A stretch of 64,000 nt of DNA from an uncultured Pelagibacteraceae bacterium (lineage in GTDB: Bacteria; Pseudomonadota; Alphaproteobacteria; Pelagibacterales; Pelagibacteraceae), in NCBI GenBank assembly GCA_902562875.1, contig CACEVB010000005.1, forward strand, positions 1-64,000, given 5' to 3'. The position numbers were made by a program, and so were the translations under genes. The notes beneath the pieces were generated by a model. The model saw nothing but the letters and a program-made list of their open reading frames with translations, was not told the origin of the DNA and did no database searches. This document shows, in pieces, positions 14,451 to 55,934 of the stretch (its first letter is position 1; each line of letters starts with the position of its first letter).

Positions 14451-14573
14451 TTATTTTTTCTCTCTTTTAAAGCTACCTTTCCCTTTTTTAGGTTTAATAA
14501 TTTGAGATCTAAACTTTAAGGAAAGCAGATTTTTAGCAATAAAATTTTTTTTTTTTTTAAATTTTGTATCCAT
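14451..14573 (-). CDS. arfA: ArfA-like alternative ribosome-rescue peptide (40 aa: MDTKFKKKKNFIAKNLLSLKFRSQIIKPKKGKGSFKREKK)
   Basis: not in ORF track; LxFRxxxxKxKKGKGSFKR resembles the ArfA core ([19 protein letters not shown] in E. coli). Confidence 0.6.
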   Translation of the reverse strand: MDTKFKKKKNFIAKNLLSLKFRSQIIKPKKGKGSFKREKK

Positions 14574-15126
14574 TTTCTGTGCTCAAAATAAACTTGTCGT
14601 CTTTGAATTTTGTAAAAATCTTTTTTCTTAATCTATAAATATGTGTTTCAACTGTATGCGTTTCTAATTGCGAGTTATAACCCCAAACATCTTTCTCAAG
14701 GTCTGAAATAGTTTTATTTTTTTGGCTATTTTTTAAATAAACTATTATTTCAATTTCTTTTTGTGTAAGTTTTAGAATTAAACCATTTTTACTAAAGATT
14801 CTTGAATTGGTATTTAATTTATATTCTTTTATATGTAAGTCTGATTGTTCAATATATTTGTTTTTCATCAAAGAAATATTTATAAGCTCAATCAGGTTAT
14901 TTAAACTTATTGGTTTTTTGATTAATACTAACTCATTCAAATTATTTATTTCTTGAATGGTTTTTTCACTAATAACGACATGTTGACCTAAAAAATTTTT
15001 TGATAAACTCTTCAATTCAGAGGTTGATTTTATGAATTGCAAATCGTAATCAAATAATTCTTTTAATTCATTGAAAATTTCGAATAAACTTTTATTTTTA
15101 AAAAATATAATTAAAGAATTACTCAT
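14557..15126 (-). CDS. winged-helix (OmpR-type) DNA-binding response regulator with degenerate receiver
   Basis: C-term LTQKEIEIIVYLKN...WGYNSQLETHTVETHIYRLRKKI...TENGYKI; N-term lacks a clear phospho-Asp. Confidence 0.8.
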   Translation of the reverse strand: MSNSLIIFFKNKSLFEIFNELKELFDYDLQFIKSTSELKSLSKNFLGQHVVISEKTIQEINNLNELVLIKKPISLNNLIELINISLMKNKYIEQSDLHIKEYKLNTNSRIFSKNGLILKLTQKEIEIIVYLKNSQKNKTISDLEKDVWGYNSQLETHTVETHIYRLRKKIFTKFKDDKFILSTENGYKI

Positions 15127-15137
15127 TATTAAATAAT

Positions 15138-15629
15138 ATGTTATTAAAATTAAAAAATAAAGATACATTGATAATTGACGACTTTATTTTTAAATGCTGT
15201 ATTGGGAAAAATGGCACTAAGAAGAATAAACTAGAAGGTGATGGTTTTACACCTAAAGGAATATTTAAATTAGGATCAATCTATTGGCGAAAAGACAAGG
15301 TATTAAAATTAAAAAGTAGTTTAAAATCAAAAATAATTTTAAAAAATATGGGATGGTGTAATGATAATAAAAGTAGTTATTATAATAAACCAATAAATAT
15401 TAACAGTAAGTTCCGTTCAGAAAAATTATTTAGAAAAGATTATAAATATGATTACTTGATTGAAATTTTATATAATAGAAAAAAAATAATTAAAAACAAA
15501 GGTAGCGCTATATTCTTACATCTAACAAAAAATTATCAACCTACAGCTGGGTGTATTGCCGTAAAAAAGAAAGACTTTATTATAATTGTTAAATTAATTA
15601 ATAGAAATTCTAAAATTTTGATATCTTAG
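15138..15629 (+). CDS. L,D-transpeptidase (YkuD) family protein
   Basis: GDGFTPKGIFKLG and IFLHLTKNYQPTAGCIAV (catalytic H/C motif). Confidence 0.85.
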   Translation: MLLKLKNKDTLIIDDFIFKCCIGKNGTKKNKLEGDGFTPKGIFKLGSIYWRKDKVLKLKSSLKSKIILKNMGWCNDNKSSYYNKPININSKFRSEKLFRKDYKYDYLIEILYNRKKIIKNKGSAIFLHLTKNYQPTAGCIAVKKKDFIIIVKLINRNSKILIS

Positions 15630-16862: not shown

Positions 16863-17762
16863 TTAGAATGCAAAAGTTACATTGATTTCAGTAAATGTAT
16901 CATCATCTGCTGAAGAACCTGCAACATTGTCTGTAGAGTTTGCTACTAAACCAAAAGTCATTCCACCCATTGTATATGAAGCGGAAATACCTGATGACTC
17001 TTCATCAGTTCCAGTTTGCATATCTACATCCCACATACCGTAAGATATTGACATATTTTCGTTTACTGCAAAAGAAACACCAATACCTGTCGCTTCTTCG
17101 TCTGAACTTGAGCCAGATGCATCAATTTCTGATGACTGGTAAGCTGCAGTAATGCTTCCTACTGTGTACTTAGCAAAATATGTTGTTAAGTCAGTAGTTG
17201 CACCGTTTTCACCAATACCATAACCAAGTGTTAAACCGTCCATTAAACCGCTGTACGTAAGTACTTGCGAGTTATCATTTGAACCGTTCGCACCTTTTGT
17301 TAAAGCTGCACTTATTCCAAAGTTACCGAATGAACCTGTGTAATAAACAGCACCAGTATCATTACCTTGAACTAGTCCGTTATCATCTGTGTCTGTGTCA
17401 TCCCATACTTCTTCACCAGCTGAAGGCAATACGTATCTATATGCTCTGATACCTGCACCACTTCTCCCGTTAGCTACTGCGATTTTACCAGTTTCACCCA
17501 TATCTAAAAATGCTTCTGAAGATGTGTGGGCACCAGCTGATAATTTTTGAAGATAACCAGCAGTCATTCCGTTATCCATTTCACCAGATGCAGAGAATAC
17601 TAAACCTCTATCAATTGTGAACGGATTACCTGTTACTTCATCATCATCTTGAGATTTATACTCAATCTTTGCTTTACCAGTAACTGATGCACCAGCGTAA
17701 GCAGATGAAGCAACTAAAGAACCTGCTAAAGTTGCAAGTCCTAGTTTTGTTAGTTTGTTCAT
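16863..17762 (-). CDS. outer-membrane porin
   Basis: signal peptide MNKLTKLGLATLAGSLVASSAYA, alternating beta-strand pattern, C-terminal Phe; strong SD (TTAGGAG). Confidence 0.88.
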   Translation of the reverse strand: MNKLTKLGLATLAGSLVASSAYAGASVTGKAKIEYKSQDDDEVTGNPFTIDRGLVFSASGEMDNGMTAGYLQKLSAGAHTSSEAFLDMGETGKIAVANGRSGAGIRAYRYVLPSAGEEVWDDTDTDDNGLVQGNDTGAVYYTGSFGNFGISAALTKGANGSNDNSQVLTYSGLMDGLTLGYGIGENGATTDLTTYFAKYTVGSITAAYQSSEIDASGSSSDEEATGIGVSFAVNENMSISYGMWDVDMQTGTDEESSGISASYTMGGMTFGLVANSTDNVAGSSADDDTFTEINVTFAF

Positions 17763-17973
17763 AAATTTACTCCTAATGTTAATAATTAATTATAAACATT
17801 GCGTTTTTAGCAAAGAGTCCCTGATTTATGATAATTTTTTTATATTTTAAGCGATTATTTTTACTATTGTTGCAAAAATACATCATATTAAAAATACCTC
17901 AGAAATTAATATTTTCGTGTTTTTTAAATATAATTTGCTAAATATTCTTATCTGAATACAGTATTTTAAAAAC

Positions 17974-21563: not shown

Positions 21564-22568
21564 ATGATTCTTAAAACTTTTGAATTATCAAAAAAAAAAG
21601 AAATAAATGGTAATTTCTTTCTTTTGTATGGAGAAAACGAAGGATATCAAAATGAAATTATTAAAAACATACTCCTTAAAAATAGTAATTTTAAACAAAG
21701 TAAATACGATGAAAAAGAAATTATTGATAATTATGAAGAGATTGTTTCCAGTATCCTAAACAAATCTTTCTTTGAAAATGAGAAAATTTTAATTATTAAC
21801 AGAGTTACAGACAAAATTATTAGTTTTATTGACGAAATATCAAGTCGTAAAATAGATCATGTAAAAATTGTATTAAAGAGTGGTATTTTAGAAAAAAAAT
21901 CGAAATTGAGAAATTTTTTTGAGAAAGACAAAAAATTAATTTGCATTCCTTTTTATTCAGATGATTACCGAACGCTCGCATCCATGGCTAATATTTTCTT
22001 CAAAGAACAAAAAATCTCAATATCTAATGAGTTAGTTAATTTGATTGTAGATCGATGTAATGGAAACAGGGGTTATCTGAAAAATGAGCTAAATAAAATA
22101 AAATTATATCTTAGTAATAAGAAAAATATAAATTTAAAAGAAATATTATATTTGACTAACTTAACTGAGAACTTTTTTATATCAGATTTGGTGGATAATT
22201 GTTTATCACAAAATTTAAAAAAACTAATAAAAATTTTGAACGAAAATAATTATGGCAATGAAGATTGTATTTTAATTATAAGAACCTTTTTAGCTAAAGC
22301 CAAAAGGCTAATGATTTTAAGAAGAGATTATGATGCATATAAGGATATAGAATTAGTAATAAAGAATTATAAACCTCCGATTTTTTGGAAAGATAAACCA
22401 CTGGTGATAGATCAAGTCAAAAAATGGAGTCTGGGTGAAGTAAACAGTTTATTAATTGATATAAATCGTATTGAACTATTAATTAAAAAAAGCTCAAATA
22501 ATTCACTAAATATTTTATATGATTTTGTTTTATGCGTAGCTAAAAAAACTAATAATGAGACTTTATAA
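21564..22568 (+). CDS. holA: DNA polymerase III subunit delta
   Basis: FLLYGENEGYQNEII, leuS-lptE-holA order. Confidence 0.88.
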   Translation: MILKTFELSKKKEINGNFFLLYGENEGYQNEIIKNILLKNSNFKQSKYDEKEIIDNYEEIVSSILNKSFFENEKILIINRVTDKIISFIDEISSRKIDHVKIVLKSGILEKKSKLRNFFEKDKKLICIPFYSDDYRTLASMANIFFKEQKISISNELVNLIVDRCNGNRGYLKNELNKIKLYLSNKKNINLKEILYLTNLTENFFISDLVDNCLSQNLKKLIKILNENNYGNEDCILIIRTFLAKAKRLMILRRDYDAYKDIELVIKNYKPPIFWKDKPLVIDQVKKWSLGEVNSLLIDINRIELLIKKSSNNSLNILYDFVLCVAKKTNNETL

Positions 22569-23400
22569 CCGTTATTATGCGATTAAGTTGATCTAATTCT
22601 TTATACTCGAAAATTATTTGCCCTGAATTATTTTTTTTATTTTTAATATGGACATTAATTCCAATCTTGTTTTTCAGCGTATTCTCTAAAGTAAGAATGT
22701 TAGGATCTTTTGCAAGAATTTTTAAATTCTTTTTAGATTTTAAAGCTCTAATTAAAACTTCGGTTTGTCTTACAGACAATTTTTCACTAATAATTTTTCT
22801 TGCAATAAAACTTGCATTATCAAGACCAACTAAAACTTTAGCATGACCTTGGGATAACTGATTCTTTTCGATAAAAGAGATAACATCATCAGATAAAAAT
22901 AAAAGTCTTAACGTATTTGTTATATGAGATCTACTTTTGCCGATAAACTTTGACACCTTCTCTTGATCATAACTAAACTCATCAATAAGCCGTTGATAAC
23001 CTTTGGCCTCTTCGATTGGATTAAGATCCTTTCTTTGTACGTTTTCAATAATAGCAATTTCTAGGGATTTTAAGTTATCAGCTTCTATCACAACAACTGG
23101 AACCTCATGAAAACCTGCTGATTGTGAAGCTTGCAATCTTCTTTCACCTGCTATTAATTCATATTTATTATCTTGATCATTTGATTTTCTGACAATTAGA
23201 GGCTGGATTATTCCTCTCTCTTTGATGGAATTTGTCAATTCATCCAGACTTTCTTTTTCAAAATATCTTCTCGGTTGATACTTGTTAGGAATAATTGAAC
23301 TAATCGCAATTTTAGTTTTAGTTGATTTAACATCATTATCTCCAATCAAAGACGATAGACCTCTACCTAATCCTTTTTTTTTTTTAAATGGGTTTATCAC
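22549..23400 (-). CDS. parB: chromosome partitioning protein ParB
   Basis: GLGRGLSSLIG, NKYQPRRYF, YELIAGERRLQAS. Confidence 0.98.
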   Translation of the reverse strand: MINPFKKKKGLGRGLSSLIGDNDVKSTKTKIAISSIIPNKYQPRRYFEKESLDELTNSIKERGIIQPLIVRKSNDQDNKYELIAGERRLQASQSAGFHEVPVVVIEADNLKSLEIAIIENVQRKDLNPIEEAKGYQRLIDEFSYDQEKVSKFIGKSRSHITNTLRLLFLSDDVISFIEKNQLSQGHAKVLVGLDNASFIARKIISEKLSVRQTEVLIRALKSKKNLKILAKDPNILTLENTLKNKIGINVHIKNKKNNSGQIIFEYKELDQLNRIITVIKSHY

Positions 23401-24197
23401 GCAGCACTCTCCACAAGTTTATCTTGATTTATAACTTCGTCTGCGAAACTAAAGTATGCTTTACTTCCAGAACATGTTTTATCATAAATTAACACTGGCA
23501 CACCATGAGAAGGTGCTTCCGATAACCTAACATTTCTAGGAACTATAGATGAGTAGACTTTTTCTTTAAAATAATTTCTAGCCTCTTTCTCGACTTCAAC
23601 TGATAATTTATTTCTTCTATCAAACATCGTCAGAAGTATTCCTCGTATACTTAAATTAGGATTAAGGTTCGATTTTATACGTTCAATAGTTTTCATAAGT
23701 TGAGACAAACCCTCCAAAGCAAAAAATTCTGTCTGTAAAGGCACTATCAACGAATCCGACGCGACAAGAGCCATGATGGTTAGTAAACTAAGTGAGGGCG
23801 GACAGTCAATGAGGATATAATCGTATGATGGCCTAGAATCATTTAAAATAGAGGTTAATTCGTCCTTTAGTATGAATGCTCTTTTGCTGTTACCTGCCGT
23901 TTCAACCTCTAAACCTGATAAATCAACATTTGAACTTACTAAGTCGAGCTCTCTAAATTTAGTTTTTTGAACTACATCTGAAATTTTTTTGTTTCCATTC
24001 AATACACTATAAATTGTGTTGTCCGAATTTTCAGTATTTGATAATCCAAGACCAGTAGTTGCATTTCCTTGTGGATCTAGATCTATCACTAAAATTTTTT
24101 TACCTTTCATTGACAATCCAGCCGCAAGATTTATTACTGTTGTTGTTTTACCTACACCGCCTTTTTGATTTATTATTGAAATTATTTTTTTATACAT
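23397..24197 (-). CDS. parA: chromosome partitioning ATPase ParA/Soj
   Basis: NQKGGVGKTTT, LDPQGNATTGLG. Confidence 0.98.
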   Translation of the reverse strand: MYKKIISIINQKGGVGKTTTVINLAAGLSMKGKKILVIDLDPQGNATTGLGLSNTENSDNTIYSVLNGNKKISDVVQKTKFRELDLVSSNVDLSGLEVETAGNSKRAFILKDELTSILNDSRPSYDYILIDCPPSLSLLTIMALVASDSLIVPLQTEFFALEGLSQLMKTIERIKSNLNPNLSIRGILLTMFDRRNKLSVEVEKEARNYFKEKVYSSIVPRNVRLSEAPSHGVPVLIYDKTCSGSKAYFSFADEVINQDKLVESAA

Positions 24198-24832
24198 TTT
24201 TTTTTCAAGTTAGAAATTTTTACAATCATGGACTCTTCATTTGTTAAGCTTTTTTTTTCTTCATAATTGAAGTTCCAAATTTTTAATGCTTCATCTAAAA
24301 TTTTTTTTCCACTTTTACCTAAAAATATAATTATATATTTGAATTTTTTAAAATTTTGATTTGCTATTTCAAAAATTACTGGTAGCGGTTTAAATGCTCT
24401 GGAAATTATTACATCAGTTTCCAAATTTTCTTCTTTAAAAATATTTTTATTATGAATTTGATAATTTAATTTAAATTTTTTTGATACATTGTCTAAAAAT
24501 TTGCTTTTGTGATAACTTTTTTCATAAAATATAATTTTAAATAATGGTTTTTTTGATTTCATTAAAATAGCCAAAACAATACCAGGTAATCCTGCCCCAG
24601 CTCCTATATCAGTACAAGTTTTAATGTCATTTTTATCAATAAAATCAATAGTTTGTGCACTATCAAGTATATGCCTTGATTTTATTGACTTTTCAGTAGA
24701 TTTACTAATTAAATTTATATCCTTATTTTTAAGAATTATTTCTTTTGAATATTCCTCCAGCTCTGCCAACGTTTCACGTGAAACATTGAGGTAATTTATA
24801 ATATCAATTTTAAAATTATTCGAATCAATCAA
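24182..24832 (-). CDS. rsmG: 16S rRNA (guanine527-N7)-methyltransferase
   Basis: [28 protein letters not shown]. Confidence 0.96.
24770..24785. promoter_or_regulatory. parS: parS site (CGTTTCACGTGAAACA) within rsmG
   Basis: one mismatch to consensus TGTTTCACGTGAAACA; next to parAB. Confidence 0.92.
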
Positions 24833-26700
24833 GCTATATGCTTAATAGACTTTCTTTTTACATGAGACAACAAAATATATACTGCTGCAGGAGTTACACC
24901 ATCAATTCTGAGAGCCTGGCCCATAGTTCTTGGTTTCACTTGCTTAAATTTTGACTTAACTTCATTAGAAAAACCAGAAAAACTGTCATAATCAATATTA
25001 TCTGGTATTATTAGGTTTTCATCTCTTTTAAATGCCAAAATATCAGCATTTTGCTTCTTGAGATAACCTCTATAATGCGAATTAATCTCCAATTGATCGT
25101 CAATTTCACGTGAAACATAAGTAATATTAGGCCATATTTCTCTTATTTTACTCATATTTACTGATTTTTGACCTAAAATTTGAGTTGCAGATCTATTTAC
25201 ACCATCTTTCGCTATATTGATAGAATACTCTGATGCTTTGGATGGCGTAATTAATAACTTATCCATTTGTGACTGTATTTTTTTTAGGTATTTTGATTTC
25301 TCGGTAAAGACTTCTTTTCTATAATCTGAAACTAAGCCTAAATTTATACCTTTTTGGGTTAACCTTAAATCTGCGTTATCAGATCTTAATGTAAGTCTAT
25401 ATTCAGCCCTAGATGTAAACATTCTATAAGGTTCGGCTACTCCCTTAGTCACAAGATCGTCTATCATAACTCCTATGTAAGCTTCTGACCTATCTAAGAT
25501 GAATGGTTCTTTGCCTTGAATTGCTAAAGCAGCATTAATGCCAGCTATCAAACCTTGTGCAGCTGCCTCTTCATAACCTGTAGTTCCATTTATTTGACCT
25601 GCAAGATAAAGGCTTTTAATTTTCTTTGTTTCTAGTGTTAAAAAAAGCTCTCTTGGATCAACGTAGTCATATTCAATTGCATATCCAGGTCTTAAAATAG
25701 TAACGTTCTCTAAACCATTGATTTTACTACATATTTCTTGCTGCACTATTGCTGGTAGAGAAGTTGATATACCATTTGGATAAATTGTATTATCATTAAG
25801 ACCCTCTGGTTCTAAAAATATTTGATGTCGATCTTTATCAGAGAATTTTTTTACCTTGTCTTCTATAGAGGGACAGTATCTAGGGCCAACTCCTTTTATG
25901 CTTCCGGAATACATTGCGCTTCGTTTTAAGTTTTTAGAAATAATCCTATGAACTTCAGAATTTGTATATGTCATTCTACATGAAACTTGTTTATTAATTT
26001 TCTTTTTTGTTAGGAATGAAAAAAAATAAGGATCTTCATCTGCGTGTTGAACTTCAAGATTTTGAAAATTAATTGTTCTAGCATCGAGTCTGGGTGGTGT
26101 TCCAGTTTTAAGTCTACCTATTTTAAAAGTATACTTTTTTAATTGCTCGCTAAGACCTGTTGAGGGCTTCTCGTTATATCGACCAGCAGGAGTTTTATTA
26201 TCGCCTATATGTATTAAACCATTCAAAAAAGTGCCAGTAGTTAGAACTACTTTAGAAAATTTAATTTCTTTTCCTGATTGTGTAATAATGCCTTTTATCT
26301 CATTATTTAAGAAGATGAACTTAATTACAGGGTCTGAAAATATGCTTAAATTACAATAGTTTACAAGTTTTTCTTGCATATATTTTTTATATAACGATCT
26401 GTCAGATTGCGTTCGAGGACCTCTGACAGCAGGGCCTCGACTTCTGTTCAACAATCTAAATTGTATGCCAGATTTATCAGCTATTTCACCCATAACACCG
26501 TCTAGAGCATCTATTTCTCTAACTAGATGTCCTTTCCCTAAACCTCCGATTGCTGGATTACATGACATCTCACCAATTGTCTTAAAGTTATGAGTAAATA
26601 AAGCTGTATTGACACCAAGCCTTGCAGATGATGCTGCAGCTTCGCAACCAGCATGGCCCCCTCCAATTACACCTACATCGAAAAATAAATCTTTATTCAT
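24829..26700 (-). CDS. mnmG: tRNA uridine-5-carboxymethylaminomethyl modification enzyme MnmG
   Basis: [15 protein letters not shown], full-length GidA. Confidence 0.99.
25102..25117. promoter_or_regulatory. parS: second parS-like site (AATTTCACGTGAAACA) within mnmG
   Basis: two mismatches to consensus, intact TTTCACGTGAAA core. Confidence 0.75.
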
Positions 26701-28111: not shown

Positions 28112-28156
28112 TAAATAAGTATATATAAAATAAAAGTTATATTATATTTTTTTTTG

Positions 28157-28984
28157 ATGATTGTTTGGTTAGCATCATATCCTAAAAGTGGAAATACTTG
28201 GATTAGATCTATATTATCTACTCTTATATTTTCAGATAATGAAAATTGTAATTTTGATCATTTAAACAAAGTACCAAGGTACCCTGATAGATCACATTGC
28301 GAAGGACTGGAAGATGATTTATCAGACATAAATAAAATAAAAAAAATATGGCTAATTTCTCAGTCCAAATTAAATTTAGATAATTCAATTAAAATTTTAA
28401 AAACCCATCATGTTAATTGTAAAATAGGCGAATATGAATTTACTAATTCAGAAAATACTCTAGGAGTTATCCATGTTGTACGTGACCCCAGAAATATTAT
28501 TACATCTATAAAAAATCATTATGTATTAAAAAGTTACGAAGAAGCACTAAAGTTTATTATGGACGAAAAAAAGATGATAGGAACAGGAAGAAAAATACCT
28601 CAAATAATTAGTTCATGGAAAACTAATTATATTTCATGGAAAGCAGTAAAAAAAAATTATTTGATTATTAAATACGAAGATCTAATAAAAAATACTGAGT
28701 TAGAAATTAATAAAATATTAAATTATTTATATAAACTTCATGATTTCAAAATAAATCAAGAACAAATATCAAAAGTAATTAGATCTTCATCTTTTAAGGA
28801 TTTCCAGAAACTTGAAAACGAAAATAAATTCAGTGAAAATACCGTAAATTTAGAGACAAATGAGAAAATAAAATTTTTTAATCAAGGGCCGCACAATGAT
28901 TGGAATAAATTGATCAGCAAAGACATAAGGCTTAAAATTGAGACAGAATTTAAATATGAAATGAGTGAATTAGGTTATTTATAA
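28157..28984 (+). CDS. sulfotransferase domain protein
   Basis: 5'-PSB-type loop ASYPKSGNTWIRS and VVRDPRNIITSI. Confidence 0.9.
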   Translation: MIVWLASYPKSGNTWIRSILSTLIFSDNENCNFDHLNKVPRYPDRSHCEGLEDDLSDINKIKKIWLISQSKLNLDNSIKILKTHHVNCKIGEYEFTNSENTLGVIHVVRDPRNIITSIKNHYVLKSYEEALKFIMDEKKMIGTGRKIPQIISSWKTNYISWKAVKKNYLIIKYEDLIKNTELEINKILNYLYKLHDFKINQEQISKVIRSSSFKDFQKLENENKFSENTVNLETNEKIKFFNQGPHNDWNKLISKDIRLKIETEFKYEMSELGYL

Positions 28985-28987
28985 AAA

Positions 28988-30535
28988 TTAACTAATTAAA
29001 TTAAACATTGTTTGCAAATTTTTTTTATAATATTCATTTTTATTTATTGAAGAGGAATATATTTGGCTTCTAGCTTGAGATATACTTACTGTTTTAATGG
29101 GTGTTTTTGTGGATCGATGATGGTTAAAACAATTCTCATCAAAATCTAATTCACAAAAATCCAATAATTTTTTTACTTCTGTATTTTTATTTCTAATTAG
29201 GTTTTCATAATTAATATTGTAAATTGAGTCTTTTAATTTAAATGTCCAAAATTTCATCAAATCTTTATATAATATATAAAAATTTCCTATATCTTCTTCA
29301 GAGTACGACCAATCCATTAAATATGATGAAAAAAGGTTTTTATATATTGATAAACAGATGTCTTTTGGATTTCTTGTGCAATGAATTATCTTAGAATTAT
29401 TAAAAAAAATTTTTATAATTCCCAACCATTTAAAATTCATCACAGCCTTATCAGTTATTATATAATTTTTAAATTTGTGAAATTCTAATAATTTATGATA
29501 ATCATCCTCGATTTTAGAACTCTCCATGTGCATCTCTTCTAGTATTTTCTGTTTATTTAATTTGCCGTCTTCAAATAAATTATCAATCACAGATTTATTT
29601 AGGTAATCTAATTCACCTGCACCATCTACTTTATTATGAGAGGCTATAATCTGTTCAACTAAAGTTGTTCCAGACCTTGGCATACCACAAATGAATATTA
29701 TTTTTTTATTTTTATTATTAAAAATTCTTTTCTCTAAATCTATTTTAGAAAAAAAATCTTTAATTGTTGAAAATTTTTCCTTTTCTTTTTCTAAGTTAAA
29801 CTTAGAAAATTTTTTTTTTATTTGATTAGCATTCCTTACATACATGAAAGATTTTTCATGATCTCCAATATCATCAAAAGCTTTTCCCAAAGCATAAAAT
29901 AAATCTGTTTTCTTTTCGTCTACTAAATTGGAAGACTTAGAAAGATTCAACATTTCATTTAAATGGTTATTTTCAATATTATACTCTGTCATAGTGCTAA
30001 GACCCCTGTGTGCTATAGTATTATTTGGATCTAATAACAAAATTTTTTTTAAATAATCTATAGCTTTATTAAATTTACCTATGCTTTGGTAACAGTGAGC
30101 AGAGCTAAATAATATCATTAAATTATTTGGATCTATCAAAAGAGCCTTTTCAAATAATAAAATGGCACCTTCATTATCTGATAAGGATTGTTTTAAGTTT
30201 GCATAATTGTTTAAACATTTTATATTTTTATTATCATTCTTTAAAATTTCTTCATAGAGTTTGATCGCCATTTCAAATTTACCTATAGTTTTGTATGAGT
30301 TTGCCAGATTGTTTTTTGCAGCATCATTATGAATATCTAACTCTAAAGATTTTCTAAAATAATCTATTGATTTTTTAATCTTTAATCCTCTTTGTAAGAT
30401 CAATCCACCAAGGTTGTATATATAAGAATTTTTAGGAAATTTTTTAATTAAATGATTACAATTTCTCATTGCTTCATTTAATTGATTAGATTGTATATTT
30501 ATATTTATTTTATTTATCTCTTTTTCAAAATTCAT
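28988..30535 (-). CDS. TPR-repeat sulfotransferase
   Basis: N-terminal TPR repeats, then ICGMPRSGTTLVEQIIASH sulfotransferase motif. Confidence 0.92.
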   Translation of the reverse strand: MNFEKEINKININIQSNQLNEAMRNCNHLIKKFPKNSYIYNLGGLILQRGLKIKKSIDYFRKSLELDIHNDAAKNNLANSYKTIGKFEMAIKLYEEILKNDNKNIKCLNNYANLKQSLSDNEGAILLFEKALLIDPNNLMILFSSAHCYQSIGKFNKAIDYLKKILLLDPNNTIAHRGLSTMTEYNIENNHLNEMLNLSKSSNLVDEKKTDLFYALGKAFDDIGDHEKSFMYVRNANQIKKKFSKFNLEKEKEKFSTIKDFFSKIDLEKRIFNNKNKKIIFICGMPRSGTTLVEQIIASHNKVDGAGELDYLNKSVIDNLFEDGKLNKQKILEEMHMESSKIEDDYHKLLEFHKFKNYIITDKAVMNFKWLGIIKIFFNNSKIIHCTRNPKDICLSIYKNLFSSYLMDWSYSEEDIGNFYILYKDLMKFWTFKLKDSIYNINYENLIRNKNTEVKKLLDFCELDFDENCFNHHRSTKTPIKTVSISQARSQIYSSSINKNEYYKKNLQTMFNLIS

Positions 30536-32368: not shown

Positions 32369-32896
32369 TTAATTGAAAGTGTCATTTATTTCTTTAGCAA
32401 AACTTTTTACATTGTCCCAGTTAGTAAACTCATAAATTTTGTTAGTATCGGTAGGTCCTTTAGTTATAAACATAATAAATCTAATAATTTGTTTATTAAA
32501 AAAATTATATTTTGGGTAGTCTACTTTTCCAGCAAAAACGCCTAATTTATCTGGTGTCCATTTAGTTTTTATTAAAAACTTTTGGACATACGGGTTAGTA
32601 TCAGGAGTATCTTTCCCTTGCTTGCGGGCGACAACGTTGACAGAAAAAAAAACATTTTTTTTAGTTTTAAGAAGCTGAGAATTTTTTTTTACGAAACTTA
32701 ATATTTTAGGACTATGTTTTCCGTATCTTATACTTGCACCTATTATTATAAGATCGTAATTTTCTAAATTAACTTCTGAAATATTATCAATTGATACTAT
32801 TTTATGCTCATGTTTATTTTTCAAGTATTCTTTTATTGCTTCGCAAATTTTTCTTGTTTGACCGTCTGTGCTGGAATAAATTATAGCCGATTTCAT
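32369..32896 (-). CDS. hemG: HemG-type (flavodoxin) protoporphyrinogen oxidase
   Basis: flavodoxin fold IIYSSTDGQTRKIC; IIIGASIRYGKHSPKIL; FSVNVVARKQGKDTPDTNPYVQKFL; adjacent to hemH and hemE. Confidence 0.9.
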   Translation of the reverse strand: MKSAIIYSSTDGQTRKICEAIKEYLKNKHEHKIVSIDNISEVNLENYDLIIIGASIRYGKHSPKILSFVKKNSQLLKTKKNVFFSVNVVARKQGKDTPDTNPYVQKFLIKTKWTPDKLGVFAGKVDYPKYNFFNKQIIRFIMFITKGPTDTNKIYEFTNWDNVKSFAKEINDTFN

Positions 32897-32900
32897 TAAA

Positions 32901-33896
32901 TTATATATATTTCGTAATTAGGTACTTAAATAACTGTATGTGGTTATCGTTGTCGTTTAAACAAGGTATAAAATCAAAGTTTACACCACCTGCATCGACA
33001 AAACTAGCTTTGCCCTCCATCGATATTTCTTCTAGTGTTTCTACACAATCCGAAGCGAATCCGGGACATATTACTAAAATATTTTTTTTCCCTTCCTTTG
33101 GTAATTTTTCTAATGTTTTATCAGTATAGGGTTGTAACCACTCCTGAGGCCCAAATCTAGATTGAAACGTTGTCATAATAGGTATTTCAAATTGAAGTTT
33201 TTCATTTATTAATCTGGTGGTTTTATGACAGTAGCAATGATATGGGTCTCCCTTGTCAAAATATTTTTTTGGAATACCGTGATAAGACGCCATTATGATA
33301 TCTGGTTTCCAATTTATTTGACTCAACTTATCTTCTATAGAATTACAAATGGCTTCGATATATAAAGGTTCAGACTCGTAATGTGGTATTATTTGTAAAC
33401 TGGGTTGCCACCTCATTTTTGATAATGTTCTGTAAACCTCGTCGCAAACAGTGGCTGTGGTAGCGGCAGCATATTGTGGATATAATGGAAGAATGACAAG
33501 ATTCTCACAACCTGCATCTTTCAGGTCAATAATTTTACTTTTTATACTAGGCTGTCCATACCTCATTGCATAGTCAATAATTAATCGGTCATTTCCTATT
33601 TCACTGTTTAATTTTTTAGACTGCATTTCGGTATAATATCTTAAGGGTGACATGTTTATATTCTTCATCCAAATTTTTTTATAAGCTTTTGCAGTTTTAG
33701 AGGGTCTAAAAGTTAAAATGAATAAATTGAGTATTATTTGCCAAATAATCGGGTTTACTTCTATCACTCTTCTATCTGATAAAAATTCTTTCAAATATTT
33801 TCTTATATCAAGCCAGTTAGTTGAGTTTGGGGTTCCTAAGTTTATAATTAAAACTCCCGTCTTACCAAATTTCACTGAAGGATGATTTTTATCCAT
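32901..33896 (-). CDS. hemH: ferrochelatase
   Basis: VLIINLGTPNS, ASYHGIPKKY, CPGFASDCVETLEEI. Confidence 0.98.
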   Translation of the reverse strand: MDKNHPSVKFGKTGVLIINLGTPNSTNWLDIRKYLKEFLSDRRVIEVNPIIWQIILNLFILTFRPSKTAKAYKKIWMKNINMSPLRYYTEMQSKKLNSEIGNDRLIIDYAMRYGQPSIKSKIIDLKDAGCENLVILPLYPQYAAATTATVCDEVYRTLSKMRWQPSLQIIPHYESEPLYIEAICNSIEDKLSQINWKPDIIMASYHGIPKKYFDKGDPYHCYCHKTTRLINEKLQFEIPIMTTFQSRFGPQEWLQPYTDKTLEKLPKEGKKNILVICPGFASDCVETLEEISMEGKASFVDAGGVNFDFIPCLNDNDNHIQLFKYLITKYI

Positions 33897-34894
33897 TAAT
33901 AATCTTTCACTAATTTTACTAAATATTCTATCATATTGGGATCTGTTTGTGGGAGAACTCCGTGCCCCAAGTTAAAAATATGAGGATGATCTTTAAAATT
34001 ATCTAAAATAGCTAAAGTATTTTTTTTTATATTGTTGACGTCTGACAATAAGATTTTTGGGTCTAAGTTTCCTTGAGTTGGTATTTTGATTTCTTTAACA
34101 ATTCTTTTAATATCAACATTATAATCAAGACTTATAACACTTGGATTTACCTCATTTATAAACTCAACATAATTTTTTGTTTCTCTTGGAAAGCAGATGA
34201 CAGGAATATTTAGAGACTTAATAAATTCTACTAATTCAGCATTAGGTTTGTAAATCAAATCCCCTACATCTTTTTTATTTACTAATCCTGCCCAACTATC
34301 AAATATCTGAATTATATCTGCTCCGTTTTTAATCTGGTTTTTTATATGAATCTTAAGATATTTAATTATAACTTGAATTAACCTTTTGTTTTCTTTTAAA
34401 TTTTCTAGTTTACTATTAAGTTCTTTTTTTGGAGATTGTTTATTTAACATATAGACCAAAATAGTCCAAGGTGCTCCCACAAAGCCAATAAGGCTTTTAT
34501 TTTGACTAATCAAACTGTGGGATACTTTTTTTATTGATCTATATACCGGTAAAAGTTTTTCTGTAAACTCATTTTCGTCTGTGCTTGAAAAATTTACATT
34601 TTCCAGCTCTCCGAGTATTGGCCCAAAATTTTTTTTAAATTCTACTTCTTGACCAATCCCATAAGGTAACATTAAAATATCCGAAAATATTATTGCAGCA
34701 TCAATATTAAACCTTTTCAATGGTTGTAGAGTAATTTCTGGCACAAGTATTTCATTTAAACATAATTTTATAAAATCTGAATTTTCTTTTCTAATTTTCC
34801 TAAATTCAGGTAGATATCTTCCTGCTTGTCTCATTAACCATATAGGTTTCTGAGTGGTAGACCCTTCATTAACGACTTTCTTTATTAAGTTCAT
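33896..34894 (-). CDS. hemE: uroporphyrinogen decarboxylase
   Basis: PIWLMRQAGRYLPEFR, NLGHGVLPQT. Confidence 0.98.
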   Translation of the reverse strand: MNLIKKVVNEGSTTQKPIWLMRQAGRYLPEFRKIRKENSDFIKLCLNEILVPEITLQPLKRFNIDAAIIFSDILMLPYGIGQEVEFKKNFGPILGELENVNFSSTDENEFTEKLLPVYRSIKKVSHSLISQNKSLIGFVGAPWTILVYMLNKQSPKKELNSKLENLKENKRLIQVIIKYLKIHIKNQIKNGADIIQIFDSWAGLVNKKDVGDLIYKPNAELVEFIKSLNIPVICFPRETKNYVEFINEVNPSVISLDYNVDIKRIVKEIKIPTQGNLDPKILLSDVNNIKKNTLAILDNFKDHPHIFNLGHGVLPQTDPNMIEYLVKLVKDY

Positions 34895-35179
34895 AATATA
34901 TAAATAAATAATTTAAGGTATTATTAGTAGTATAGCCTGTGAATTAAGATAATTATTCGAAATTAACAAGATATAAACTTTTTTTAAAGGTTTAATTTTT
35001 AAAAAAAAGCTTATTAATCAACGCATATTACAATATTTACTATGTTATAAAAAATGATGTATATATTTTTTAACATGTCCAAAAATGTTAATAAATATTA
35101 TAAATATTATTAAATTTGGGATTTTTGGTAAGATTAAACTTTAATTATTAAACAATAATTTTTTTGCACAAAGTTATAC
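34895..35179. other. oriC: putative replication origin (oriC)
   Basis: 285-bp AT-rich gap between hemE and ppsR; near-consensus DnaA boxes at 34938-34946 (minus, TAATTCACA) and 35162-35170 (TTTTGCACA); tandem TAAATATTA x2 at 35092-35109; gene orientation diverges here. Confidence 0.75.
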
Positions 35180-36004
35180 ATGAGAAATAAACATCAAATA
35201 TATCTAGTTTCAGATTCGACTGGTGAAACAATTGACAGAATATTTACGGCTCTTAAAGCTCAGTTTTCGATATTTAAATATAAAAAACATCAATTTTCAT
35301 TTACCAGAACCAAAAATCAAGTTAACGAAATAATTAAAATTTCATCTAAAAATAAAAATTCAGTAATACTTTACACTCTAGTAGATGCACAACTTACTAA
35401 CTTCCTAATCAAAGAAGCAGCAAAGAAAGGTATCCCTTGTTTTGGAGTTCTTGGAGAACTTATTAAAAATTTTTCTGAAATACTTAAACAGGACGCTCTA
35501 AATATTCCTAGCAGACAACATAAAATGAACGAAGAGTATTATGACAGAGTTGAAGCTATACAATTCACCATGAGGCATGATGATGGTAGAGATTTAAAAG
35601 ATATAGAAAATTCAGACATTATAATATTAGGAGTTAGCAGAACGAGCAAGACACCGACATCAATATATTTGGCGAACAGAGGCTTTAAGACATCAAATAT
35701 TCCATTAGTTAATCAAAACTCAATACCAGAAAACTTAAAGAAAAATGAAAAGAACATATGTATTGTGGGTCTTACAACAGATCCTGAAAGGCTGATAGAT
35801 TTAAGAAAGAATAGATTAAGAAGTCTTAAAGAAAATGAAAAATCAAGTTACACAAATTTAAAAAAAATTTCAGAAGAAATTTATGAGGCTCGTAAAGCTT
35901 TTAAAAAATATAAATGGCCTGTTATTGATGTTACAAGAAAATCAGTAGAGGAAACAGCGGCATCTATAATAAAAATATACGAAATTAATAAAAAGAATGT
36001 TTAA
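35180..36004 (+). CDS. ppsR: pyruvate, phosphate dikinase regulatory protein (kinase-pyrophosphorylase, DUF299)
   Basis: IYLVSDSTGETID, GVSRTSKTPTSIYLANRG. Confidence 0.95.
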   Translation: MRNKHQIYLVSDSTGETIDRIFTALKAQFSIFKYKKHQFSFTRTKNQVNEIIKISSKNKNSVILYTLVDAQLTNFLIKEAAKKGIPCFGVLGELIKNFSEILKQDALNIPSRQHKMNEEYYDRVEAIQFTMRHDDGRDLKDIENSDIIILGVSRTSKTPTSIYLANRGFKTSNIPLVNQNSIPENLKKNEKNICIVGLTTDPERLIDLRKNRLRSLKENEKSSYTNLKKISEEIYEARKAFKKYKWPVIDVTRKSVEETAASIIKIYEINKKNV

Positions 36005-46251: not shown

Positions 46252-47190
46252 ATGAGTCATAAATATTATAAACCCGCAAAGTCAAGATTACATAGAAGTG
46301 AATTAGCAGTGCCAGGCTCTGCTCCTAAAATGTTTGAAAAAGCACTTAATTCAGATGCTGATTACGTTTTTTTAGATTTAGAGGATGCTGTCTCACCAAA
46401 TGATAAAATAGCTGCAAGAGAAAATACGATTAAAGCTCTAAAAGAGATTAATTGGAGAGAAAAAGGAAAAACAATATCAGTGAGAATAAATGGATTAGAT
46501 ACTCACTATATGTATCGTGATGTAATAGACATTGTAGAACAAGTTGGAGATAAAGTAGACACAATATTAATTCCTAAAGCAGGAACTGCTAGCGATGTTT
46601 ATATGGTTGATTGTTTGTTGACGCAGATTGAAGAGAGTAAAAAAATTAAAAATAAAATCGGTTTAGAGTGCCTGATAGAAACAGCACTCGGAATGTCTAA
46701 CATAAAAGAAATTGCAACTTCTAGCGAAAGATTAGAAGCACTTCATTTTGGTGTTGCAGATTATGCGGCAAGTTTGAGAGCAAGAACAGTAGTTATTGGA
46801 GGACTAAATCCAGATTATCCTGGAGATCAATGGCATCACGGTTTATCTCAAATGGTTATGACTTGTAGAGCTTATGGATTAAGAGCTATAGACGGACCGT
46901 TTGGAGATTTTAATGATCCCGATGGATATATTCTTTCTGCAAAAAGGGCTGCAGCAATTGGAATCGAGGGAAAATGGGCAATTCATCCTTCTCAAATCGA
47001 ATTAGCAAACCAAGTTTTCACACCTCCAGAGGCAGAAGTAAAAAAAGCAAAAAGAATTATAGATGAACTCGATAAAGCTGCTAAGGAAGGCAAAGGTGCT
47101 GCTCAATTAGATGGTAGAATGATAGATGCTGCGTCAGCTCGTATGGCTGAAAATATTGTTAACATAGATAAACTAATTCAAAAAAAGTAA
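46252..47190 (+). CDS. mcl: L-malyl-CoA/beta-methylmalyl-CoA lyase (CitE-like)
   Basis: RSELAVPGSAPKMFEKAL, FLDLEDAVSP, WAIHPSQIELAN; followed by mtkAB. Confidence 0.88.
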   Translation: MSHKYYKPAKSRLHRSELAVPGSAPKMFEKALNSDADYVFLDLEDAVSPNDKIAARENTIKALKEINWREKGKTISVRINGLDTHYMYRDVIDIVEQVGDKVDTILIPKAGTASDVYMVDCLLTQIEESKKIKNKIGLECLIETALGMSNIKEIATSSERLEALHFGVADYAASLRARTVVIGGLNPDYPGDQWHHGLSQMVMTCRAYGLRAIDGPFGDFNDPDGYILSAKRAAAIGIEGKWAIHPSQIELANQVFTPPEAEVKKAKRIIDELDKAAKEGKGAAQLDGRMIDAASARMAENIVNIDKLIQKK

Positions 47191-47191
47191 T

Positions 47192-48355
47192 ATGGATATT
47201 CACGAATACCAAGCAAAAAAACTATTAGCTGAATTTGGAGTTGTTATTCCAAGAGGTGGAATTGCCTATAGTCCAGAAAACGCTGAAAATAAAGCTCGAG
47301 AAATCGGTGGATCTAAATGGGTTGTTAAAGCACAAATACATTCGGGAGCAAGAGGTAAGGCTGGCGGAATTATTTTATGCAACTCTCCTTTAGAGGTAGC
47401 ACAAGCAACTGATAAGCTTTTAGGAAAAAAATTAGTTACAAATCAGACAGGACCTCAAGGAAAAATAGTAAATAGAATTTATGTTGAAGAGGCAACAGAT
47501 ATCAAAAAAGAGTTTTATTTAGGCTTAGTTTTTGACAGAAGTTCTGAGAGCATTATGGTTGTAGCTTCCACTGAAGGGGGTATGAGTGTTGAAGAAATAT
47601 CAAAAGAAAAGCCAGAGAGTATTATAAGATCAAAAATTGAAGTTGCAGTTGGTATGCAAAAATTTCAAGCTAGAGAAATAGCTTTTGGTTTAGGGGTTGC
47701 TCCAGAATTAATAAATCGAACAGCAGATACGATTATAAGTTGTTACAGGGCATTTAGTGAGCTAGATGCAACCATGGTTGAGATTAATCCTTTAGCAGTT
47801 TCTGGCCAAGGACAAATACTTGCATTAGATTGTAAGATGAGTTTTGATAATAATGCTTTATTTAGAAGAAACCAAATATCTGAACTTAGAGATAAAACAC
47901 AAGAAAATCCTAGCGAGGTTTACGCATCAGATAGAGGTCTAAATTATGTTAGCTTAGAGGGAAACATTGGAAATATAATCAACGGTGCTGGTCTGGCCAT
48001 GGCATCAATGGATATGATTCAATTAGCTGGTGGAGAACCCGCAAACTTCTTAGATGTAGGAGGAGGAGCGACACCAGAAAAAATAGTAAAAGCATTTAAA
48101 TTAATTTCAATGGACAAAAAAGTTAAAGTTATATTGGTTAATATATTTGCTGGCATCAATAGATGTGATTGGGTAGCTGAAGGGATAGTTCAAGCTTTAG
48201 ACAAAATTGAAATAAATGTTCCACTTGTAATAAGATTAGCAGGTACAAATGTCGACAAAGGAAATAAAATTTTAAGAGATAGCAAAATTAAATATATTGA
48301 GGCAAAATCTCTTGAGGATGCAGCGAACAAAGCTGTAAAAACTTTAAAGTTATAA
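47192..48355 (+). CDS. mtkA: malate-CoA ligase (malate thiokinase) beta subunit, SucC-like
   Basis: MDIHEYQAKKLLAEFGVVIPRG; SucC fold; operonic with mcl. Confidence 0.83.
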   Translation: MDIHEYQAKKLLAEFGVVIPRGGIAYSPENAENKAREIGGSKWVVKAQIHSGARGKAGGIILCNSPLEVAQATDKLLGKKLVTNQTGPQGKIVNRIYVEEATDIKKEFYLGLVFDRSSESIMVVASTEGGMSVEEISKEKPESIIRSKIEVAVGMQKFQAREIAFGLGVAPELINRTADTIISCYRAFSELDATMVEINPLAVSGQGQILALDCKMSFDNNALFRRNQISELRDKTQENPSEVYASDRGLNYVSLEGNIGNIINGAGLAMASMDMIQLAGGEPANFLDVGGGATPEKIVKAFKLISMDKKVKVILVNIFAGINRCDWVAEGIVQALDKIEINVPLVIRLAGTNVDKGNKILRDSKIKYIEAKSLEDAANKAVKTLKL

Positions 48356-48357
48356 TT

Positions 48358-49239
48358 ATGGCAGTTTTGATAGATAAAAACACAAAAATAATAATTCAGG
48401 GTTTTACAGGAAAAATGGGTACATTCCACGCTGAGGAGATGATTAAATATGGTTCAAATGTTGTCGGAGGAGTAACCCCAGGAAAGGGAGGGACAAAACA
48501 TCTAGATCTTCCAGTTTTCAACACAGTAAAAGAAGCTGTAGATAGTACAAATGCTACAGCCTCTATTTTGTTTGTGCCACCTGCTTTTGCTGCAGACTCT
48601 GCTATGGAAGCGGCTGACGCTGGTATAAGGACATGTGTGGCAATAGTAGATGGAATACCATCACATGACATGATCAAAATTAAAAGATATATGAGAAGAT
48701 ATTCTAAATCAGAAAAAATGAGTTTAGTTGGACCAAATTGTGCTGGAATAATAAGCCCTGGCAAATCTATGTTAGGAATTATGCCTGGACATATTTACAA
48801 AGAAGGTAGAGTTGGAATAATTAGTCGATCAGGAACATTAGGTTATGAAGCAGCACAACAATTAAAAGATCTTAATATTGGAATATCAACAAGTGTTGGA
48901 ATTGGTGGAGATCCTATAAATGGTAGTTCATTTAAAGATATTATAGGAAAGTTTGAGGAGGATGATGAGACCGATGCTATTTTGATGATCGGTGAAATTG
49001 GAGGACCACAAGAAGTAGCAGCTGGCGAGTTTGTAAAAAATAATATGAAGAAACCCGTAATAGCTTATATTGCTGGATTAACAGCACCAAAGGGTAGAGT
49101 AATGGGACATGCGGGAGCTATTGTATCTGCATACGGTGAGAGTGCTATCGAAAAAGTTGAGATTCTAAAACAATGTGGTGTTACAATTTCAAAAAATCCT
49201 TCTGTAATGGGAGAGACTGTTAAAAAAGTTTTAAGTTAG
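48358..49239 (+). CDS. mtkB: malate-CoA ligase (malate thiokinase) alpha subunit, SucD-like
   Basis: IIQGFTGKMGTFHAEEMIKYGSNVVGGVTPGKGG; SucD fold. Confidence 0.83.
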   Translation: MAVLIDKNTKIIIQGFTGKMGTFHAEEMIKYGSNVVGGVTPGKGGTKHLDLPVFNTVKEAVDSTNATASILFVPPAFAADSAMEAADAGIRTCVAIVDGIPSHDMIKIKRYMRRYSKSEKMSLVGPNCAGIISPGKSMLGIMPGHIYKEGRVGIISRSGTLGYEAAQQLKDLNIGISTSVGIGGDPINGSSFKDIIGKFEEDDETDAILMIGEIGGPQEVAAGEFVKNNMKKPVIAYIAGLTAPKGRVMGHAGAIVSAYGESAIEKVEILKQCGVTISKNPSVMGETVKKVLS

Positions 49240-55100: not shown

Positions 55101-55934
55101 TTAATAATTTAAATATTTTAAATCATCTGCAAATTTATCATTTACTTTAGATTTAATTTTATCAGGCAGAATTTTTTGCCATTTATTTTCAAAACCTAAA
55201 TTAAAAAATTTTACTTTTTTATTAGTCTTTAAAGAAATCACACTTTCTTTAAACTCGCCTAATTCCTCTTTTTTTCTAAGATTTTTAAAATTTGTTGATT
55301 TTATAGCGTTATAAAGTTTTTCTTCATTAATCACATCTGAATTTTTAAGTAACTTATTTATAAAAATTACCAAATCTTTAAAAATTTTATTACAGTCAGT
55401 TTCTAAATCTTCATATTTAATAACCATAGTTTTTATATTATTATCAGAAGTCCATGATTTATAATGTGTTGACCATGAACTAATAAAATGAGTTGCATCA
55501 TAATCCCCTGAAGATGTATCATATAATATTGTGTCCTCATTACACATAAACCTCAAAGCCTCATCATATGTTATATCTGTATGATCTTTTAAAGACGTAA
55601 TCAAATTTCTTGGATCTCTCAAAATATATACCGCACCTAAAGAGTATTTAGGTAAAGTGAACTTTGTTTTATTAAATGAAATTAATGCATTATGAGTTTT
55701 AAGCATCTTAATTTTTTTATTTTCCATTAATCTATCTTGAATAGAATGCCAATAATTTACAATTTCGCCTGGATCACTAAGTTTCATATTTATAAAATCT
55801 TTGCTAGGAAATTGTTTAAAATTATCAAGCAAATCAAAATTAAACATACCATCATCTGTAAAATAGTATGCAGATAAGAAGGATCTAACCCATGTATTTC
55901 CACTTTTAGGATATGATGCCAACCAAATTATCAT
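55101..55934 (-). CDS. sulfotransferase domain protein (paralogue of 28157-28984)
   Basis: IIWLASYPKSGNTWVRSFLS; ILRDPRNLITSL. Confidence 0.9.
   Translation of the reverse strand: MIIWLASYPKSGNTWVRSFLSAYYFTDDGMFNFDLLDNFKQFPSKDFINMKLSDPGEIVNYWHSIQDRLMENKKIKMLKTHNALISFNKTKFTLPKYSLGAVYILRDPRNLITSLKDHTDITYDEALRFMCNEDTILYDTSSGDYDATHFISSWSTHYKSWTSDNNIKTMVIKYEDLETDCNKIFKDLVIFINKLLKNSDVINEEKLYNAIKSTNFKNLRKKEELGEFKESVISLKTNKKVKFFNLGFENKWQKILPDKIKSKVNDKFADDLKYLNY

Follow-up and report, generated by a model that had tools for sequence, protein, structure and literature searches.

A probable chromosomal origin of replication in the hemE-ppsR intergenic region of a SAR11 (Pelagibacteraceae) bacterium

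Origins beside hemE and the gap in the window

The replication origins of Caulobacter crescentus (Cori) and Rickettsia prowazekii are both flanked by hemE and a COG1806 gene, and the gap between these two genes is AT-richer and contains DnaA boxes (PMC1914354). Caulobacter relies on weak boxes, the G- and W-boxes (PMC4468827), and Cori also contains five CtrA sites and one IHF site (PMC1914354). In the hemE-COG1253 origins of Wolbachia, Ehrlichia and Anaplasma the hemE side is kept while the other neighbour has changed, and some have few or no CtrA sites (PMC1914354). A further point of comparison is the basal unwinding system (BUS) of the Bacillus subtilis type, in which a DnaA box, a spacer of about 4 bp and in-phase NAT trinucleotides adjoin an AT-rich stretch (PMC8287927). 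We found no paper describing a SAR11 origin in the literature searched (origin databases and most subscription papers were outside its scope), and make no claim of priority.

The DNA analysed here, a stretch of 64,000 nucleotides that we will refer to as the window, is part of a 1.07-Mb draft assembly in 27 contigs, and its PpsR is closest, among named loci, to those of Pelagibacteraceae (SAR11) single-cell genomes (78% identity). A 285-bp gap at 34895–35179 separates hemE (33896–34894, minus strand; TIGR01464, scoring above the cut-off) from ppsR (35180–36004, plus strand; DUF299/COG1806, PF03618/PRK05339), so that its flanks are those of the Caulobacter and Rickettsia origins. Its GC content is 16% as against 29% for the window (84% and 71% AT respectively). 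An earlier note, made from the letters of the window, had proposed this gap as a probable origin; the coordinates and AT-richness that it gave are correct, and the gap is, as it said, the longest intergenic stretch among the listed open reading frames of at least 80 amino acids. The gene order that it recognised as that of alphaproteobacterial origins is also present, with parB (22549–23400, minus strand), parA (23397–24197, minus strand), rsmG, mnmG, mnmE and rho on one side and maf, aroE, coaE, a dnaQ-type exonuclease gene and secB on the other.

We propose that the gap is very probably the chromosomal origin (oriC) of this bacterium. The basis for this is the conservation of the gap and of its box positions, together with skew minima, genome-wide box maxima, the proximity of parS and the periodicity of a trinucleotide block. 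The window origin is a known kind of object, and an unusually degenerate example of it.

Not every property of the region contributes to this assignment. The switch in gene strand that the note took as a sign of an origin is real locally, but gene orientation and GC skew reverse again at about 22 kb and about 50 kb, and by itself the switch is therefore no chromosome-scale signal. In 50-bp windows the softest DNA of the gap is among the least stable 0.5%, yet a softer place exists elsewhere in the window, so that stability does not single out the gap and we do not use it as a marker. No RNA element was found in the gap by Rfam matches up to E = 1.

The gap is kept in all 110 related loci compared, with a length of 261–296 bp and a GC content of 12–20%, and is thus shorter than that of R. 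prowazekii (384 bp; PMC1914354). It also outlasts its neighbours. None of 24 genomes from family f2, which belongs to the same order, yielded a ppsR, and at the eight loci examined hemE faces maf across roughly 270–300 bp containing box-like sites, together with a TAG-rich block at most of these loci. In G143, a closed genome from another genus of Pelagibacteraceae, hemE is absent from the site, its best match lying 578 kb off at 31% identity. Here rho is the gene that faces ppsR, about 350 bp from it, with four TTATNAACA sites inside this gap and at the ppsR edge. The changed neighbours in Pelagibacterales are therefore maf or rho, where in Wolbachia and its relatives the new neighbour is COG1253.

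Several genes of the surrounding region deserve mention in their own right. At 32369–33896, the ferrochelatase adjoining hemE shares only 29% identity with its positional equivalent in G012, a closed genome from the same genus, and a Flavodoxin_5 (HemG-like) gene comes after it; the family f2 loci have two different ferrochelatase types beside hemE, some with a HemJ-like reading frame. These differences suggest that heme genes beside the origin have been replaced. Two sulfotransferase genes, one with TPR repeats, lie between mnmE and rho at 28154–30535 (4–7 kb from oriC), and no collinear G012 counterpart was seen for the larger; a third is at 55101–55934. An HpcH/HpaI lyase and two succinyl/malate-CoA ligase-type subunits are encoded at 46252–49239, and in G012 the ligase pair is best matched elsewhere, at 16–18 kb.

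DnaA boxes in the gap and in related gaps

Two one-mismatch DnaA boxes had been pointed out in the gap, and both are present at positions conserved in relatives. The first, which we call box 1 (34938–34946, minus strand), is TAATTCACA in the window and TTATTCACA in most relatives, with position and strand conserved. The second, proximal to ppsR (35162–35170, plus strand), is TTTTGCACA; 66 of the 110 gaps have a site here, mostly TTATTAACA or TTATAAACA. A third one-mismatch box, TTATTAACA at 35086–35094 on the minus strand, had been overlooked. It is opposed by TTAACATG at 35070–35077, and a site is found at its position in 75 of 110 gaps, again mostly as TTATTAACA. Between box 1 and this third box, at 34960–34979 on the plus strand, AAATTAACA and ATATAAACT are the degenerate remains of an array of weak boxes at 11-bp steps, where relatives have TTATNAACA. 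The TTATACATG reported at 35174 is present on the plus strand over the ppsR start codon (35174–35182) and is strongly conserved in alignments; it may be a weak box or a translation signal.

The three one-mismatch boxes of the window gap compare with 0.64 expected from shuffles (P = 0.03), and the gap has one TTATNMACA; over the whole window there are fewer one-mismatch boxes than by chance (76 against 103). The perfect 9-bp tandem repeat at 35092–35109, TAAATATTA twice over, exists as described, but is not a conserved element and arises in 2.4% of shuffles, and we do not regard it as an iteron. Given these two chance levels, the motifs are weak evidence within the window genome taken alone, and the significance of the box positions comes from their conservation across relatives, where the excess of boxes is strong.

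Over the 110 loci, perfect boxes number 0.81 per gap as against 0.036 in shuffles, and one-mismatch boxes 4.5 as against 0.86. As many of the loci are closely related, the test was repeated on 30 species-level genomes, in which TTATNAACA occurs 2.07 times per gap (0.15 in shuffles) and TTATNCACA 0.77 times (0.03 in shuffles), whereas forms with G or T as the sixth base show little or no excess (0.07 against 0.02 and 0.17 against 0.15 respectively). This sixth-base specificity is what a protein reading TTATN(A/C)ACA would be expected to leave. Since shuffling leaves shared ancestry in, the figures for both sets are ratios and not probabilities. The consensus in SAR11 gaps is shifted to TTATN(A/C)ACA, with TTATNAACA distinguishing them from the Caulobacter and Rickettsia origins, and reliance on weak boxes is a feature shared with Caulobacter. 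The low number of good boxes that had seemed unusual is real in that the window boxes are few and degenerate, but in part it results from applying the E. coli consensus, since the SAR11 family mostly uses TTATNAACA.

The boxes also keep fixed places, and the conserved boxes that the origin proposal anticipated among relatives are therefore found. At the hemE end a minus-strand box lies 30–50 from hemE and plus-strand boxes lie at 60–90 in 11-bp steps, 11 bp being the dominant box spacing in relatives (47 pairs); at the ppsR end there is a minus-strand box about 90 from ppsR and a plus-strand box 10–20 from it. The two boxes pointed out earlier are the first and last of these places.

The dnaA gene is present, and its product has an intact domain IV that can be aligned with the E. 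coli structure 1J1V. In the four genomes of the genus checked (including L111 and L112, the dnaA loci of the window assembly and of G012) this domain reads FSNRDHTT, not FGGRDHTT, and in G143 it reads FTGRDHTT. The change from FGGRDHTT to FSNRDHTT does not simply explain why the boxes have shifted, as G143 has the same shift.

A predicted unwinding module at the hemE end

The DnaA-trio system has the consensus 3'-GAT-5', and the published rule for a BUS is a DnaA box, a spacer of up to 16 bp and then at least three trios with a central A (PMC8287927). In the window, box 1 is a one-mismatch box separated by the 4-bp spacer AGCC (34934–34937, plus strand), as in the basal unwinding system (PMC8287927), from five in-phase TAN trinucleotides, TAT TAT TAG TAG TAT (34919–34933, plus strand), which read 3'-NAT-5' away from the box and mark where the strands are predicted to open. 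AT-rich DNA satisfies this rule easily, and the weight of the argument therefore rests on conserved phase. On the hemE side of box 1, T is found at -16, -13, -10 and -7 in 87–93% of the 30 species-level genomes, with A beside it in 67–87%, and in-phase TA occurs at 2.97 of the four places as against 1.05 in shuffles. The window run of five trios is the longest among these genomes, 13 of which have a longest run of only 2.

Box 1, spacer and trios together fit the published system and are a predicted unwinding module. This DnaA-trio block, rather than the tandem repeat, is the conserved element of the hemE end. There are differences from the B. subtilis-type BUS, in which the box is a tandem pair and the first trio base is mostly G; the predicted SAR11 trios have one box, and their first base is T, G or A. 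A point against the assignment is that a hemE promoter could overlap the trio block.

De novo motif discovery in the hemE-ppsR gaps of 25 alphaproteobacteria, almost every one from a separate family, returned CCTGTGGATAAC-GGGGATT following TAG/TTG/GTG triplets, on the plus strand and on the hemE side in most gaps. The SAR11 element, including its downstream ATTA, is apparently an AT-shifted form of this class-wide element, the two having been equated by eye. A model of the SAR11 element scores P <= 0.05 in 37% of the class gaps and in one of the eight family f2 gaps, where a trio-like block is discernible by eye; this SAR11-only ungapped model is too AT-biased to decide the matter class-wide, and de novo discovery did better.

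Chromosomal position, alternatives and control

Two closed relatives allow the gap to be placed on whole chromosomes: G012 (1,343,202 bp, 5,000 bases masked), in which 1,230–1,284 kb is collinear with most of the window, and G143, of which 1,210,000 of 1,211,322 bp were read. GC skew resolves an origin only to tens of kb, the minimum being a broad plateau. In G012 cumulative skew has its maximum at 616 kb, a low plateau at 1.23–1.31 Mb and a raw minimum at 1,290,841; a two-segment fit gives 1,231 kb (95% bootstrap range about 1,135–1,300 kb), and the collinear gap is at 1,262 kb. The G143 fit gives 160 kb (95% about 123–192 kb); the gap, at 141 kb, is about 19 kb away. The skew minimum, which the earlier note had named as a check on its proposal, thus falls at the site within error in both relatives.

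The boxes point to the same place. Among all 275-bp windows of G012 the gap ranks first for TTATN(A/C)ACA and is the sole top-ranked window with two perfect TTATNCACA, and the G143 gap is the top box cluster of its genome, with 4 of 162 sites. In the window, parS sites CGTTTCACGTGAAACA (24770–24785) and AATTTCACGTGAAACA (25102–25117) lie about 10 kb from the gap; they contain the only two copies of the parS core TTTCACGTGAAA in the draft assembly, and the single copies in G012 and G143 lie 7.5 kb and 20 kb from the gap respectively. On its own contig, the count of TTATNMACA alone points to 17756–17798 and not to the gap. This densest such cluster of the contig consists of three TTATNAACA sites where a porin-like gene begins; as it lies upstream of that gene, and the collinear place in G012 is outside the top clusters there, we do not take it for an origin.

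Divergent genes require promoters, and the gap might do no more than drive hemE and ppsR in the two directions, with DnaA at most a regulator of transcription. Such a reading could draw on a -10-like TATACT that overlaps the trios on the hemE strand and on the TTATACATG adjoining the ppsR start. A simple promoter shared by the two genes would hardly be expected to outlast the loss of either, but the gap and its box-like sites persist both where hemE faces maf and where rho faces ppsR; as the gap also has the densest boxes of the whole genome in both closed relatives, and lies there at or close to the skew minimum, we consider this explanation very unlikely. We give as little credence to an origin elsewhere in the 100-kb zone of the skew minimum, either near dnaA (1,198 kb in G012) or at the divergent start of tsaD and hemC, where the raw G012 minimum (1,290,841) coincides with the second-ranked box window. 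The tsaD-hemC boxes lie mostly within coding sequence, with an intergenic space of 53 bp, and on this account we reject that site; the 95% range of the change-point, about 165 kb wide, includes the gap, and parS and the class-wide element point to hemE-ppsR.

With the hemE-ppsR gap as the origin, a plausible course of initiation can be outlined. DnaA-ATP would bind box 1 (34938–34946), the weak boxes at 35086–35094 and 35162–35170 and the degenerate 11-bp-phased array at 34960–34979, and a DnaA filament would extend from box 1 across the 4-bp spacer onto the trios (34919–34933). This filament may open the AT-rich stretch toward hemE (34895–34918), where the helicase would load; forks would then leave both ways, and parS with ParAB, 10 kb away, would segregate the copies.

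CtrA, IHF and GANTC sites are all absent from the window gap. Across related gaps CtrA and IHF sites are at most slightly commoner than in shuffles, in contrast to Cori, and GANTC sites are fewer than expected. No CtrA was recognised among the three full-length OmpR-type regulators scanned in G012, nor does the receiver-less one in the window score as CtrA, a further difference from Caulobacter. The latter protein (14557–15168, about 20 kb from oriC) is an OmpR-type DNA-binding protein lacking a recognisable receiver domain; it has a collinear G012 counterpart (39% identity), and a similar protein is found in G037. On the site counts and regulator scores we reject control of the gap by CtrA or IHF. 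A ctrA ortholog is absent from Pelagibacter (PMC2877005) and CtrA sites are sparse or absent in some Rickettsiales origins (PMC1914354), so that the lack of clear enrichment, in a feature of the Caulobacter subtype that the wider oriC family need not have, bars only Caulobacter-type control. What is left is control probably by DnaA level and nucleotide state alone.

A broader proposal, to which we give an even chance of being right, is that SAR11 origins have shifted as a group to a DnaA box of weak affinity (TTATNAACA), with a single trio module as their sole strong element and no CtrA layer, so that DnaA occupancy alone sets initiation, and that the trio element on the hemE side represents an ancestral core of origins in the alphaproteobacteria, one that has outlasted both neighbouring genes.

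SAR11 bacteria rank with the most abundant cell groups of the ocean. A base-level map of their origin would allow growth measures from read depth to be anchored at the true origin and not at dnaA, which lies 64 kb from the gap in G012 and about 73 kb from it in G143. It would also provide a testable model for the start of replication in a streamlined cell without recognisable CtrA, and the class-wide hemE-side element may mark alphaproteobacterial origins independently of the genes beside them.
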